Part shown: positions 8,645-14,903 of the stretch, one piece after another
Position numbering within the stretch: position 1 is the stretch's first letter
How the letters are laid out: each line of letters starts with the position of its first letter
Source of the DNA: Nitrospirota bacterium
Lineage (GTDB): Bacteria > Nitrospirota > UBA9217
NCBI GenBank assembly: GCA_035516965.1
Contig: DATIZR010000050.1
Coordinates: 1 to 33,055, forward strand
Direction: 5' to 3'
Length of the DNA: 33,055 nucleotides
Program-made: the position numbers and the translations under genes
The notes under the pieces: generated by a model
Told to the model about the DNA's origin: nothing
The model's input: the letters and a program-made list of their open reading frames with translations, nothing else
Database searches by the model: none

Positions 8645-8909
8645 GCGGGAGAGTGCGGACGGCGATCCCGACCGCTCGTGACGCGGACCGCACGTACCAT
8701 CGAGATCCTCGTTGAGGGAATCATCTTTCCCTCGCTCCTCACCCTGTTCTGATATAATAGGAGAGAGTTTGCTTCGCGCGGCTTATCGTGCGGTCGATTC
8801 CGTGGCTTCCTTTTGTCCCGGGATGCGATCGCCGCAGGAACCATGAGCCCCGAAGCCGATGCCTGGCCTGAGATCCCGACATCCCAACATTGCTGCACAG
8901 GTGACCTGC

Positions 8910-11564
8910 ATGCAGGAGACCCGAAAAGAGCCCCCCAAAGCGATTTATCTGAAGGACTATCGCCCTCCTGATTACCGCATCGAAACGACCAATCTCGCCT
9001 TCGAGCTGGACGAGACGCGGACCGTGGTCCGGTCAACCCTGGCCGTGTCCTGCAATCACGACCGCTGCGACGGCATCCGTCCGCTCGTGCTGAACGGCAG
9101 GGACCTGGTGCTCATATCCGTGAAGCTCGACGGACAGACCCTGCACGAACAGGATTACAAGCGCGACGCGGAAACACTGACGCTGCTGCCGGTCCCGGAA
9201 TCGTTCGTTCTCGAGATCGAGACCGAGATCAATCCCGCCGCGAACACGGAACTGACCGGCCTCTACCTGTCGTCCGGCAACTTCATCACCCAGTGCGAGG
9301 CGGAGGGGTTCCGGAGAATCACCTACTACCTCGACCGGCCGGACGTGCTGGCGCGATTCTTCACGACCATCGTCGCTGACAAGACGAAATATCCCGTGCT
9401 GCTGTCCAACGGGAACCTGATCGGGTCGGGTGAACTCGGAAACAACCGGCACTTCGCCAAATGGCACGACCCCTTCCCCAAGCCGGCCTACCTCTTTGCG
9501 CTCGTCGCCGGCGACCTCGCGCGCATCAGCGATACCTTCACCACCCAGTCGGGACGGAAGGTGGACCTGCACATCTTCGTCCAGCACCATAACACGGACA
9601 AGTGCGGCCACGCCATGGAATCGCTCAAGCAGGCCATGCAGTGGGATGAGAGGACTTACGGCAGGGAGTACGACCTCGATGTCTTCATGATCGTGGCAAC
9701 GGACGATTTCAACATGGGCGCCATGGAGAACAAGGGACTGAACGTCTTCAATTCAAAGTACGTGCTCGCGCGGCCGGACACGGCCACGGACGGGGACTTC
9801 CAGGGCATCATGGGCGTTGTCGGGCACGAATATTTTCACAACTGGTCGGGAGACCGGGTCACGTGCCGCGACTGGTTCCAGCTCTCGCTCAAGGAAGGAT
9901 TTACCGTGTTCCGCGACCAGCAGTTCATGGAGGACATGACCTCGCGCGGCGTGAAGCGCATCAGCGACGTCAACATCCTCCGGAGCAGCCAGTTCCGGGA
10001 AGACGCCGGCCCGATGGCCCATCCCGTCCGTCCGGACTCCTACCTGCAGATCAACAACTTCTATACGCTCACGGTCTACAACAAGGGCGCGGAAGTGATC
10101 CGCATGCTCCACACGCTCCTCGGTCCCGGGGGATTCCGGAAGGGCACGGACCTCTACTTCTCCCGTCACGACGGACAGGCCGTTACGATCGAGGATTTCG
10201 TCCGGGCAATGGAGGACGCCAACTCCACCGACCTGGCCCAGTTCAGGCTGTGGTATTCCCAGGCGGGAACACCCGAGCTCCGGGTCTCCCGTTCCTACGA
10301 CGCCAAGGCCAGGACCTACAAGCTCGTGATCCGGCAGCACACCCCCCCAACGCCGGGACAGCCCGTGAAGAAGCCGATGCACATCCCCGTCGCGCTCGGG
10401 CTCCTGGGCAGGGACCGGCGGGAGCTGCCACTTCGTCTGGATGACAGGCGATCCGGTCCCGGCGGGACCATCGTGCTGGAGCTCCGGAAGGAAACGGAGA
10501 CGTTCCTGTTCTCCGATATTCCCGGGGAGCCGGTGCCGTCGCTGCTCCGTCACTTTTCCGCGCCCGTCAAGCTCGCGCTGGACCTGACCGACGAGGAGCG
10601 GCTCTTCCTGATGGCCTACGACAGCGACGAGTTCAACAGGTGGGACGCGGGTCAGCAGCTCGCGGTGAAGCTCGTCCTGGGCCTGGTGAAGGACCATCAG
10701 CAGGGGAGGGCGCTTGCGCTCGATGAAGCCTTCATCAACTCTTTCGGGAAGCTGCTCGAGAGCAAAATGCAGGACAAGTCCTTCCAGGCCTTCGCCCTCT
10801 CGCTGCCCCCGGAAAGCTATCTCGCGGACTTCATGGACGTGATCGATCCGGCCGCCATTTACGAAGCGCGGCGGTTCGTGACGCGGACGCTCGCCGGAAA
10901 GCTGAAGCAGACCTTCCTCTCCGTCTACTACACGAACCAGGACACGGGCCCGTACCGGACGGACCAGGCATCCATCGGCCGCAGGAGCCTCAAGAACATC
11001 TGCCTTGCCTACCTCATGGAGCTGAACGAGCCCGGCGTCCGGAAGCTCTGCGTCGAGCAGCTCCAGAACGCCTCGAACATGACCGATGAGGTGGCGGCGC
11101 TGGCAGCGCTGGCCGGCGTTGACTGCCCGGAGCGCGGGCCCGCGCTCGAATCCTTCTACCGGAAGTGGAAGGACGACCAGCTGGTCATGGATAAATGGCT
11201 TGCGATCCAGGCGCTGTCGCCGCTGCCGGACACGCTGTCGGTCGTGAAGCGGCTGACGACGCACGCCGCCTTTACCTTCAGGAACCCGAACAAGGTGCGC
11301 GCCCTGATCGGCTCTTTCGGACAGGGGAACCCGGTGCGGTTCCACGACCCGGGCGGCGAGGGATATGTGTTCCTCGCGGACGTGGTCCTGGAATTGGACC
11401 CCGTGAACCCCCAGATCGCGGCCCGGCTCGTTTCTCCCTTTACGTTATGGAAGCGCTACGAGGGAAAACGCAGGGGCCTCATGAAGGCGCAGCTGGAACG
11501 GATCGCGAAGACGGAGCGGCTGTCCCGGGATGTGTACGAGATCGTGACCAAGAGCCTCGCGTAA
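8910..11564 (+). CDS. pepN: Aminopeptidase N (M1 family, E. coli PepN type)
   Basis: An 884-residue cytoplasmic zinc metallo-aminopeptidase that removes N-terminal residues from peptides. The exopeptidase motif GAMEN is at residues 270-274. The zinc site HEYFH is at 306-310, with the third ligand Glu329 in LKEGF. Domain order follows PepN: N-terminal beta domain, thermolysin-like catalytic domain, a beta-sandwich (DUF3458), and a long C-terminal helical domain. The start KAIYLKDYRPPDY matches the N-terminus of PepN homologues, so I place it at ATG 8910. An in-frame ATG at 8859 would add 17 unconserved residues. Length is close to E. coli PepN (870). A terminator follows at 11621. Confidence 0.95.
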   Translation: MQETRKEPPKAIYLKDYRPPDYRIETTNLAFELDETRTVVRSTLAVSCNHDRCDGIRPLVLNGRDLVLISVKLDGQTLHEQDYKRDAETLTLLPVPESFVLEIETEINPAANTELTGLYLSSGNFITQCEAEGFRRITYYLDRPDVLARFFTTIVADKTKYPVLLSNGNLIGSGELGNNRHFAKWHDPFPKPAYLFALVAGDLARISDTFTTQSGRKVDLHIFVQHHNTDKCGHAMESLKQAMQWDERTYGREYDLDVFMIVATDDFNMGAMENKGLNVFNSKYVLARPDTATDGDFQGIMGVVGHEYFHNWSGDRVTCRDWFQLSLKEGFTVFRDQQFMEDMTSRGVKRISDVNILRSSQFREDAGPMAHPVRPDSYLQINNFYTLTVYNKGAEVIRMLHTLLGPGGFRKGTDLYFSRHDGQAVTIEDFVRAMEDANSTDLAQFRLWYSQAGTPELRVSRSYDAKARTYKLVIRQHTPPTPGQPVKKPMHIPVALGLLGRDRRELPLRLDDRRSGPGGTIVLELRKETETFLFSDIPGEPVPSLLRHFSAPVKLALDLTDEERLFLMAYDSDEFNRWDAGQQLAVKLVLGLVKDHQQGRALALDEAFINSFGKLLESKMQDKSFQAFALSLPPESYLADFMDVIDPAAIYEARRFVTRTLAGKLKQTFLSVYYTNQDTGPYRTDQASIGRRSLKNICLAYLMELNEPGVRKLCVEQLQNASNMTDEVAALAALAGVDCPERGPALESFYRKWKDDQLVMDKWLAIQALSPLPDTLSVVKRLTTHAAFTFRNPNKVRALIGSFGQGNPVRFHDPGGEGYVFLADVVLELDPVNPQIAARLVSPFTLWKRYEGKRRGLMKAQLERIAKTERLSRDVYEIVTKSLA

Positions 11565-11620
11565 CATACCCTGCGCCGGCCCTCCCGGAGCGGGCCGGTG
11601 ATGTTCTCAACAGAAACAAG

Positions 11621-11650
11621 AAAGGCAGCCTCAGTGAGGCTGCCTTTTCT
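11621..11650. terminator. Bidirectional terminator between pepN and the Ig-repeat gene
   Basis: An 11-bp stem AAAGGCAGCCT/AGGCTGCCTTT (11621-11631 with 11637-11647) has A on its left edge and T on its right. It lies between two convergent genes and can serve both. Confidence 0.85.
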
Positions 11651-11676: not shown

Positions 11677-14600
11677 TTATTGAATGGTCTTGCTGCCCTC
11701 ATTTGAAAAAGCGCTCTCGACCCCGGAACTGTTCATCGCCGTCACCGTGAAGTAATAGGTGCCGGGAGCGAGGTTGCTGATGACATAGTTCGTCACGTTG
11801 CCGGCGTTTATCGACGTGCCGTAGTTGCCTGATGCGGTCCCGTAATATACTTTATATCCGGTCAGGTTCGTGAGCGGCGTCCCGTCGGTATTGGTCGTCG
11901 GCGCAGTCCACGTCAGGCTGGCTGACCCGTTGACCACCGTAAGGACGGTCGTTGCCGAAACGTTCCCTGATATTGCCGTGATCGTGGTGGAGCCCGTGGC
12001 TATTGGCGTTGCCAGGCCGTTCGAGCCTGCCGCGTTGCTGATCGCCGCTACTGCGGTGTTCGATGAGCTCCAGGTGACCGACGCGGTCAGGTTCTGTGTC
12101 GTGGTGTCCGAATAGGCCCCCGTTGCGGTGAACTGCCGGTTCGTTCCGAGACCGGTGCTGGGATTGGCCGGCGTGATCGCGAGAGAGAGCAGTATCGCGG
12201 GATTCACGGTCAGGATCGCCGTCCCCGACACGCTTCCCGATGCGGCGGTGATCGTCGTGGTGCCCGAGCCCACGGACGTTGCCAGGCCGTGCGAGCCCGC
12301 CGCGTTGCTGATGGTTGCCGTGGCAATGTAGGATGAGCTCCAGGTAACCGTGTTGGTCAGGTTCTGCGTCGTATTGTCGGCATAGGTGCCCGTTGCCGTG
12401 AACTGCTGGTTCGTTCCCTTGGCGATGCTCGGATTGGCCGGAGTGACCGAGATCGAGACGAGTGCCGCCGGATTGACGGTCAGGGTTGTGGTTCCCGATA
12501 TGCTTCCCGATGTGGCCTTGATCGTCGTACTGCCTGCAGCCACAGAAGTTGCCAAACCGTTCGAGCCGGCCACGTTGCTGACGGTTGCCACGCCGGTGCT
12601 GGACGAACTCCAGGTGACGGATGCGGTAAGGTTCTGCGTCGTATTGTCGGAATAGGTCCCCGTTGCCGTGAACTGCTGGCTCGTACCCTTGGCGATGCTG
12701 AGATTGGCGGGCGTGATCGAGAGCGATGCCAGGGTCGCCGGATTGACGGTGAGAACCGTAGTCCCCGATACGCTTCCCGATGTGGCCGTGATCGTCGTCG
12801 TGCCTGCATCCACCGACGTTGCCAGCCCGTTCGAACCGGCCGCGTTGCTGATGGTTGCCACGCCGGTGCTCGATGAGCTCCAGGTGACCGATGCTGTCAG
12901 GTTCTGCGTCGTATTGTCGGAGTAGGTGCCCGTTGCCGTGAACTGCTGGCTCGTTCCCTTGGCAATCCCCGGGTTGGTGGGCGTAATGGAGAGCGACACA
13001 AGGGTCGCCGGACTAACCGTCAGGACCGTGGTGCCCGATACGCTTCCCGATGTGGCCTTGATCGTCGTGGTGCCTGCGGCCACCGATTTTGCCAAGCCGT
13101 TCGAACCGGCCGCGTTGCTGATGGTCGCCACGCCGGTGCTGGACGAGCTCCAGGTGACCGATGCGGTCAGGTTCTGCGTCGTATTGTCGGAATAGGTACC
13201 CATTGCCGTGAACTGTTGATTCGTGCCCGGACCGATGCCGGGATTGGCAGGCGTGACCGAGAGAGAGAGGAGCGTCGCGGGATTCACGGTCAGGGTCGTG
13301 GTTCCTGAAATGCTTCCCGATGCGGCCTTGATCGTTGTGGTGCCCGCGGCCACCGACGTTGCGAGCCCGTTCGAACCGGCAGCGTTGCTGATGGCCGCCA
13401 CGCCGGTGCTGGACGAGCTCCAGGTGACCGATGCGGTCAGGTTCTGCGTCGTGTTGTCGGAATAGGTCCCCGTCGCGGTGAACTGCTGGTTCGTTCCCTT
13501 CGCGATGCCCGGGTTGGTCGGCGTAACCGCGATGGACACGAGGGATGCAGGATTCACGGTCAAGGCGGCCGAGCCTGATACGCTTCCCGACGCAGCCGTG
13601 ACCGTCGTCGTCCCCGATGCCACGGACGTCGCCAGTCCGTGCGAGGCGGCAGCATTGCTGATTGTTGCCACGCCCGTGCTGGAAGAGCTCCATACGACGG
13701 ACGCGGTCAGGTTCTGGGTGGTATTGTCCGAGTACGTGCCCGTGGCCGTGAACTGCTGGTTCGTGCCCTTGGCAATCGCCGGGTTTGCCGGCGTAACGGC
13801 AATCGAAACGAGGGTTGCCGGATTGACCGTCAGGGTCGTTGTTCCCGATACGGCTCCCGAGGTTGCCGTGATCGTCGTCGTCCCCGATGACACCGACGTC
13901 GCGAGACCGCGCGATGCCCCGGTGCTATTGATCGTGGCCACGCTGCTGCTGGAGGAACTCCAGGTCACGGTGTTGGTCAGGTTCTGGGTGGTGTTGTCCG
14001 AGTAGGTTCCCGTTGCCGTGAACTGCTGGCTGGTCCCCGGCGCGATGCTTGGATTGGAGGGAGTGACGTGGATCGAGACGAGGGTGGCCGGATTGACCGT
14101 CAAGGTGACTGAACCCGAAATGCTTCCCGAGGTCGCCGTGATCGTGGTGGTCCCGGCGGCCATTGACGTTGCCATTCCGTTCGAACCGGCGGAACTGCTG
14201 ATCGTTGCGACGCCGGTGTTGGAAGAGCTCCAGGCAACCAGGGTGGTCAGGTTCTGGGTGGTGTTGTCCGAGTAGGTGCCTGTTGCCGTGAACTGCTCAT
14301 TGGTGCCTATGGCAATGCTCGGGCTTGCCGGCGTGACGGCAATCGAGACGAGGACGGTCTGACTGACCGTCAATTCGGTTGACCCTGAGACGCTGCCCGA
14401 TTTTGCCGTGATCGTCGTGGTTCCTTTAGCGCGGCCATAGGCATGGCCCGGAGTGTCGCCCGCTGCGTTCAGGGTAATGCCTGATGCCAGGGTCGTTCCC
14501 GTGCCCGAGGTCGTACTCACGATCGCGACGCTCGTATTGGACGATGACCAGTCGGCAATTGCCGAGATGTCCTTTGTTGTATTGTCCGCGTATATCCCAG

Positions 14601-14763
14601 TTGCCACGAATTGCTGGTCTGAATTCAGTGCGATCGTTGCACTGGCAGGGGTAACCGATATGGCCACCAGTGTAGAGTCCGGCTTCGCGGCCGGCTTGCA
14701 TCCAACCAGGGCTGTTGCAATGAGCAGTGACAGGAGAAGCGAGTGTGAGATTTTTTTCAGCAT
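11677..14763 (-). CDS. Riboswitch-controlled lipoprotein with ten Ig-like (Big_2) repeats and a fibronectin type III domain
   Basis: About 1028 residues. A lipoprotein signal (LLIATALVGC) comes first. Ten bacterial Ig-like group-2 domains (PF02368) of about 90 residues follow; each begins L-V/L-S-I/L-x-V/I-T-P and has QQFTATGTYSDNTTQNLT and a V-SGxTxLTVNPA end. The first unit is more divergent, with an inserted loop. The C-terminus is one FnIII-like domain (WTAPTTNTDGTPLTNLTGY...SAFSNEG). Such stalks usually hold surface adhesins or matrix proteins. No sorting signal, transmembrane anchor or enzymatic domain is visible beyond the lipid anchor. Start: ATG 14763 is preceded by AAGGAGG, though 11 bases away. 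Translation lies behind the riboswitch and terminator at 14798-14903. Repeat units are nearly identical at DNA level with an exact 270-bp period. Confidence 0.87.
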   Translation of the reverse strand: MLKKISHSLLLSLLIATALVGCKPAAKPDSTLVAISVTPASATIALNSDQQFVATGIYADNTTKDISAIADWSSSNTSVAIVSTTSGTGTTLASGITLNAAGDTPGHAYGRAKGTTTITAKSGSVSGSTELTVSQTVLVSIAVTPASPSIAIGTNEQFTATGTYSDNTTQNLTTLVAWSSSNTGVATISSSAGSNGMATSMAAGTTTITATSGSISGSVTLTVNPATLVSIHVTPSNPSIAPGTSQQFTATGTYSDNTTQNLTNTVTWSSSSSSVATINSTGASRGLATSVSSGTTTITATSGAVSGTTTLTVNPATLVSIAVTPANPAIAKGTNQQFTATGTYSDNTTQNLTASVVWSSSSTGVATISNAAASHGLATSVASGTTTVTAASGSVSGSAALTVNPASLVSIAVTPTNPGIAKGTNQQFTATGTYSDNTTQNLTASVTWSSSSTGVAAISNAAGSNGLATSVAAGTTTIKAASGSISGTTTLTVNPATLLSLSVTPANPGIGPGTNQQFTAMGTYSDNTTQNLTASVTWSSSSTGVATISNAAGSNGLAKSVAAGTTTIKATSGSVSGTTVLTVSPATLVSLSITPTNPGIAKGTSQQFTATGTYSDNTTQNLTASVTWSSSSTGVATISNAAGSNGLATSVDAGTTTITATSGSVSGTTVLTVNPATLASLSITPANLSIAKGTSQQFTATGTYSDNTTQNLTASVTWSSSSTGVATVSNVAGSNGLATSVAAGSTTIKATSGSISGTTTLTVNPAALVSISVTPANPSIAKGTNQQFTATGTYADNTTQNLTNTVTWSSSYIATATISNAAGSHGLATSVGSGTTTITAASGSVSGTAILTVNPAILLSLAITPANPSTGLGTNRQFTATGAYSDTTTQNLTASVTWSSSNTAVAAISNAAGSNGLATPIATGSTTITAISGNVSATTVLTVVNGSASLTWTAPTTNTDGTPLTNLTGYKVYYGTASGNYGTSINAGNVTNYVISNLAPGTYYFTVTAMNSSGVESAFSNEGSKTIQ

Positions 14764-14791
14764 CTTTAGTATTACCTCCTTCTTGGGCAAT

Positions 14792-14821
14792 AAAAAACCG
14801 CCAGATATAAATCTCTGGCGG
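14792..14821 (-). terminator. Riboswitch expression-platform terminator
   Basis: On the minus strand CCGCCAGA pairs with TCTGGCGG around an 8-base AT loop, followed by six T (14797-14792). It lies between the aptamer and the ribosome site of the Ig-repeat gene. Its 5' arm directly continues from the 3' end of the aptamer, so ligand binding could decide whether this hairpin forms. Confidence 0.85.
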
Positions 14822-14903
14822 CCCGGCGGACATTAAATCTTATGTTCTTAGTCCCGTAGCTCTGCGTCCCAGGGTTTCCCCTGGTTTGCTCTGATCAGAG
14901 AAA
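14822..14903 (-). promoter_or_regulatory. GEMM-I cyclic dinucleotide riboswitch with A at the specificity position (cGAMP-type candidate)
   Basis: Reading the minus strand, CAGAGCAAACC is followed by a 6-bp hairpin CCAGGG-GAAA-CCCTGG capped by a GNRA tetraloop. Then come GGACGCAGAGCTACGGGACTAA and, further on, GTCCGCCGGGCCGCC. These are the conserved blocks of the GEMM-I (c-di-GMP-I) aptamer: the GCAAACC strand, the tetraloop stem, the GACGCAAAGC joining strand with the base-stacking A retained, and the CCGGG closing strand. Aligned with the V. cholerae Vc2 aptamer, the ligand-contacting G20 is an A here (minus-strand base at 14890). In published work that substitution characterises GEMM-Ib aptamers, which respond to 3',3'-cGAMP. 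It controls the Ig-repeat lipoprotein downstream. Confidence 0.88.

Follow-up and report, generated by a model that had tools for sequence, protein, structure and literature searches.

The GEMM-I riboswitch upstream of an Ig-repeat lipoprotein gene in a member of the Nitrospirota (GenBank DATIZR010000050.1) raises the question of which cyclic dinucleotide it senses. The first-pass annotation of this locus, made from the letters of a 33,055-nt stretch of DNA (hereafter the window), had described an aptamer with an A in place of Vc2 G20 and taken this exchange as the mark of an RNA that responds to 3',3'-cGAMP rather than c-di-GMP. The riboswitch and its target gene comprise the following elements:

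14813-14900, minus strand: GEMM-I aptamer, class X subtype (see below), including the outer helix P0 (RF01051, 65.4 bits; class X model, 96.9 bits, with the window sequence in the training set of that model)
14896-14900, minus strand: 5' strand of P0 (CUCUG), pairing with 14813-14817; compensatory changes in 3 of 5 pairs among 14 relatives
14890, minus strand: A equivalent to Vc2 G20 (A20), RF01051 model position 11, base read back
14813-14817, minus strand: 3' strand of P0 (CAGAG), the switching segment, which also contributes to the terminator's 5' arm
14792-14824, minus strand: intrinsic terminator, stem 14824-14795 as scanned and U tract 14797-14792 (terminator scan and fold)
14775-14780, minus strand: ribosome binding site AGGAGG, read from the sequence
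11677-14763, minus strand: regulated gene, encoding a lipoprotein of 1028 residues that carries ten Big_2 repeats and ends in an FN3-like domain
11620-11648, both strands: bidirectional terminator-like hairpin closing the lipoprotein gene (terminator scan)

The identity of the aptamer is clear from its match to the Rfam model of the c-di-GMP-I/GEMM-I family (RF01051), which covers positions 14900-14814 of the minus strand with 65.4 bits (E = 7.8e-11; gathering score 35) and spans model positions 1-87, i.e., the whole model. The equivalents of A47 (14863) and C92 (14818) as well as the GNRA loop of P1b are intact, in line with the conserved blocks reported in the first-pass annotation. Moreover, the adenine at 14890 lies just 5' of the G21-C22 pair strand and thus represents the equivalent of Vc2 G20. 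An alignment placing this adenine elsewhere had been named as a reason to abandon the assignment; alignment to the Rfam model puts it at position 11. Compared to the Vc2 type, the window aptamer hence shares the secondary structure and the A47 and C92 equivalents, but it has A rather than G at position 20 and contains additional invariant positions.

The predicted terminator consists of an 11-pair stem (14824-14795) followed by a T6 tract (14797-14792). The hairpin announced in the annotation does exist, although it does not simply adjoin the aptamer, as its stem overlaps the aptamer 3' end. Folded alone, the aptamer adopts the P0/P1/P2 arrangement (-28.3 kcal/mol), whereas folding of the full leader yields the terminator (z = -2.8), which on its own reaches -17.4 kcal/mol (z = -4.9). 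The aptamer and terminator folds are mutually exclusive, a layout typical of an ON switch. This modelled competition agrees with activation through control of the terminator, the predicted direction in vivo, and there is good support for the view that the RNA works as an A20 GEMM-I switch that would turn the lipoprotein gene on. A sigma-70 promoter scan gave no match. In the mechanism that we propose for this transcriptional ON riboswitch of the A20 GEMM-I subclass class X, the aptamer 3' end (GGGCCGCCAGAGAU) would fold into the terminator when ligand is absent, such that transcription stops. The ligand, in turn, would sit in the three-way junction, with A20 opposite the adenine and C92 paired with the guanine of cGAMP, and its binding would enable P0 and P2 to keep the GGGCCGCCAGAGAU segment, preventing terminator formation and leading to the synthesis of the Ig-repeat surface lipoprotein.

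The regulated open reading frame extends from an ATG at 14763 to a stop at 11677. Its product starts with a lipobox signal (LVGC), contains ten Big_2 stretches (E = 5.9e-106) and ends with a segment that shows 64% identity to the first of the FN3-like domains in a protein under class X control at another locus (L278), so that its earlier description as an Ig-repeat lipoprotein holds. The protein may act in adhesion. With its lipobox, ten Big_2 repeats and FN3-like C-terminus, it resembles other Big_2/FN3 surface lipoproteins and is in itself ordinary; the noteworthy part is its control by an A20 aptamer. The gene stands alone, with a convergently oriented gene for an M1 aminopeptidase as its neighbour (8859-11564, plus strand). 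At the DNA level, the repeats also form a tandem array (11951-14421; 270-bp period, 9.2 copies, 79% matches), and their copy number may therefore differ among strains. The contig opens with the end of a 23S rRNA gene, followed by a 5S rRNA gene (1-344).

As judged from its sequence, the window aptamer is a member of a discrete and widespread subclass, here termed class X, of which we found no earlier description in the literature. Its consensus reads CUYUG-CUCAGAGCAAACC-NNNN-GAAA-NNNN-GGRCGCAGAGC...GCCGCCARAG, and the elements UCAGAGC and GCAGA are invariant beyond the GEMM-I consensus. The core set comprises 13 loci identified by a regular expression and one (L186) added by hand. In the alignment of these 14 members, 97% of the cells are paired and 10 of 22 pairs show changes on both sides; none of 500 shuffles matched the covariation score or the percentage paired. 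Covariation backs the P1 and P2 helices and also P0 (3/5 pairs), and its strength points to selection. A search with a class X covariance model produced matches in many Nitrospirota families, and a pattern scan additionally detected one Acidobacterium and one Gemmatimonadete. A20 is present in 61 of the 62 distinct matches with scores of 65 bits or more, and the one without it (L304) lacks the class X framework, while the generic GEMM-I aptamers read from eight other Nitrospirota genomes, from lineages without Hypr enzymes, mostly have G20.

Class X differs from the GEMM-Ib riboswitches of Geobacter (Gs1761 pgcA, Gmet_0970, pilM), although both share the common GEMM-I fold, A20, a terminator-based ON switch, the occurrence of tandem copies and pilM as one of their targets. 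The Geobacterales aptamers have a sequence of their own (AAUACUAAACC...GGRCGGAAAGCC) and a C21-G46 pair, whereas class X is characterized by UCAGAGCAAACC...GRCGCAGAGC, a G21-C46 pair, a variable P2 arm, mainly FN3/Ig-repeat targets and a ligand that is so far presumed. The window aptamer falls outside the measured Geobacterales group (ACUAAACC...CGGAAAGCC) and within class X. Most class X targets are secreted FN3/Ig-repeat proteins, making the window lipoprotein a typical target rather than an oddity. In addition, class X aptamers precede pilM in two families as well as genes for a di-haem oxidoreductase, PD40/hydrazine-synthase-like lipoproteins and a MotA/ExbB protein; a target in the relative G004 combines HYDIN-type Ig repeats with two CxxCH motifs, and the commonest target within the window's family is a conserved lipoprotein of ~149 residues. 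Two genomes contain tandem arrangements of G20 and A20 aptamers:

L275, 1329-1586 (genome G252): G20 and A20 aptamers in tandem before an FN3 surface-protein gene
L276, 464-816 (genome G226): G20 and A20 aptamers in tandem before an FN3 surface-protein gene

In both cases, the G20 aptamer comes first, followed by the A20 class X aptamer and then a single FN3 gene, and each of the two aptamers has a separate terminator, an organization that suggests the involvement of two ligands.

The claim that A20 marks cGAMP-sensing aptamers proved too strong. A scan for A20 GEMM-I cores in one genome per species returned at least 118 stretches, with the matches listed including Geobacterales, Clostridia, Omnitrophota, Nitrospirota, Acidobacteria, Chloroflexi and others and forming recognisable sequence groups. 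The Ser/Thr348 signature of Hypr enzymes was present in 17 of 32 genomes picked mainly for a Geobacterales-type aptamer (one of the 17 being the class X Acidobacterium) and in 1 of 38 picked for the other A20 type, this one belonging to the Geobacteraceae; A20 aptamers also occur in a Nitrospirota family without Hypr (L361). Furthermore, a naturally occurring A20 aptamer, that of Desulfobacca acetoxidans, binds both c-AMP-GMP and c-di-GMP, with an increased affinity for the former and perhaps only a slightly decreased affinity for the latter (PMC9481103). Given its occurrence in many lineages without the Hypr signature and this dual binding, we rejected A20 as sufficient evidence for cGAMP. 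Four relatives of the host (G002, G005, G010, G012) contain A20 aptamers that are near-identical to the Geobacterales cGAMP type (L191, L193, L194, L196, L197, L199) and precede genes for secreted proteins, in Nitrospirota without canonical Hypr.

The canonical Hypr signature, in which Ser348 lies 23 residues from the motif, was detected in 104 of 296 Nitrospirota genomes, and all 30 cases read out were GGDEF. Outside the window's family, it is present in 29 of the 31 genomes with strong class X matches, the other two being 65% and 77% complete. At the genome level this association is strong (p = 4e-12), but it becomes weak when families are counted (p = 0.08), such that shared ancestry may account for part of it. 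Within the window's family, canonical Hypr was found in none of 14 genomes. The host genome itself (G000; 3.8 Mb, 97.7% complete) encodes 22 detected GGDEF domains, none of which combines Ser/Thr348 with GGDE[F/Y]. The search for a Hypr enzyme suggested in the annotation thus uncovered no canonical representative, and the sole Ser348 among the 22 domains (L028) is accompanied by GGEEF and predicted to be inactive. CD-NTases were rejected as a source of cGAMP, as no match to PF18144 was found.

Instead, 13 of the 14 genomes in the family (12 by pattern, and G012 across an assembly gap) encode a GAF-GGEEF protein in which 25 residues separate Ser348 from the motif, for which we found no counterpart in the 282 other Nitrospirota genomes. 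The exception, G001, is 96% complete and has class X, but no Ser348 enzyme was found in it. The serine of L028 (NDRYGHLEGS) is invariant among the 17 family sequences that were read across the motif, as is GGEEF (17/17), which is neither GGDE[F/Y] nor the GGDDF of GSU1937; this conservation of the catalytic signatures argues against decay. L028 resembles the Hypr enzymes GacA and GSU1937 in having Ser348 and otherwise intact catalytic signatures, but it deviates from them in its motif, in the spacing of 25 rather than 23 residues and, by our reading, in its GAF domain. In a tree, it clusters with a GGEEF cyclase that has Asp348, indicating that it stems from such an ordinary cyclase and leaving its status as a canonical Hypr orthologue unsupported. 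According to a published rule, Ser348 works only with GGDE[F/Y], which predicts Ser348/GGEEF to be inactive; engineered GacA mutants with this combination were indeed inactive, WspR mutants followed the same trend, and the authors were aware of no natural case (PMC6456294). The protein may represent either a replacement (convergent) synthase or a coincidence, or else a sign that the ligand is c-di-GMP. The most likely source of cGAMP in the family would be this GAF-GGDEF protein. We tentatively consider a scenario, with the odds somewhat against it, in which the family lost Hypr, the GAF-GGEEF cyclase (Asp348 to Ser; 25 versus 23 residues) became a convergent synthase feeding class X, and Ig/FN3 surface proteins constitute a major output of cGAMP beyond extracellular electron transfer. 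If true, it would break the rule restricting Ser348 to GGDE[F/Y]. Six family members also encode degenerate Ser348/GGDDF proteins (NDRYGYAHGS; L245, L246, L249, L252, L253, L254), which resemble the active synthase GSU1937 (PMC8835794) in their motif; their nearest homologue in the host (L034) has Asp.

Collectively, we favour 3',3'-cGAMP as the main physiological ligand of the window riboswitch, with a probability of roughly 0.6. This preference is based on the fixation of A20 in class X, the G20/A20 tandems, the association with Hypr genomes and the control of pilM, the pilMNOP operon being a cGAMP target in G. sulfurreducens (PMC6456294); we also count in its favour that four relatives carry aptamers resembling the Geobacterales type. 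Its weak point is the lack of a synthase of known type in the window's family, which counts for the alternative that the RNA senses c-di-GMP and merely tolerates A20, i.e., the same ON switch fed by the ~20 ordinary GGDEF enzymes of the host, with A20 only lowering the affinity or tuning the threshold. The abundance of A20 aptamers in genomes without Hypr, including the family of L361, and the retention of class X in G001 would fit this explanation as well. However, we regard it as rather unlikely, since class X has a fixed A20 while seven or more G20 GEMM-I aptamers are retained in the host, since class X occurs almost exclusively in genomes that encode a Ser348 enzyme, and since a G20/A20 tandem before one gene would be redundant.

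The same tandems, with their separate terminators, argue for discriminating pockets and thereby weaken the idea of a promiscuous aptamer that responds to both c-di-GMP and cGAMP at the levels present in the cell and adds up the two signals. Precedents exist in the dual binding of the D. acetoxidans aptamer (PMC9481103) and the G. sulfurreducens omcST riboswitch, which was reported to sense both ligands (PMC6456294), and class X keeps G21-C46 and C22-G45, as opposed to C21-G46 in the selective Geobacterales type; even so, we consider summation improbable. Finally, the invariant UCAGAGC and GCAGA elements outside the GEMM-I consensus could hint at another ligand, or the window aptamer could be a non-functional remnant, but the intact A47 and C92 equivalents, P1b GNRA loop and terminator, together with the covariation indicative of selection, make this very improbable. 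Should the cGAMP reading be correct, riboswitch-based cGAMP signalling would extend to the Nitrospirota and probably the Acidobacteriota and Gemmatimonadota, with the cell surface (FN3/Ig-repeat proteins and type IV pilus assembly) as its main output there. Class X would then also provide a clean way to distinguish whether ligand choice is determined by position 20 or by the entire aptamer framework, and the window's family would put the 'Goldilocks' rule for the substrate choice of GGDEF enzymes to a natural test.

The host genome contains twelve GEMM-I aptamers at the Rfam level, with A20 in four (L001, L003, L007, L011) and G20 in at least seven. A thirteenth, with A20, is a tandem copy on contig 36 that was detected only by the class X model built here: at L011 (contig C36, 30288-30401 and 30457-30569), two class X copies precede the gene for a conserved 174-aa secreted protein, the upstream one not being among the matches of the Rfam-family search. 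On contig C53 (17498-18167; L004, L008, L009), a single leader harbours three successive G20 GEMM-I aptamers, two of them identical. Near-identical aptamers also precede near-identical multihaem cytochrome starts at L003 (1501-1581) and L006 (1501-1589), which lie on separate contigs (C75 and C113), and likewise at L180 and L049 of the relative G004. In each of these pairs, one aptamer has A20 and the other G20, so that the paralogous cytochromes may answer to different dinucleotides.
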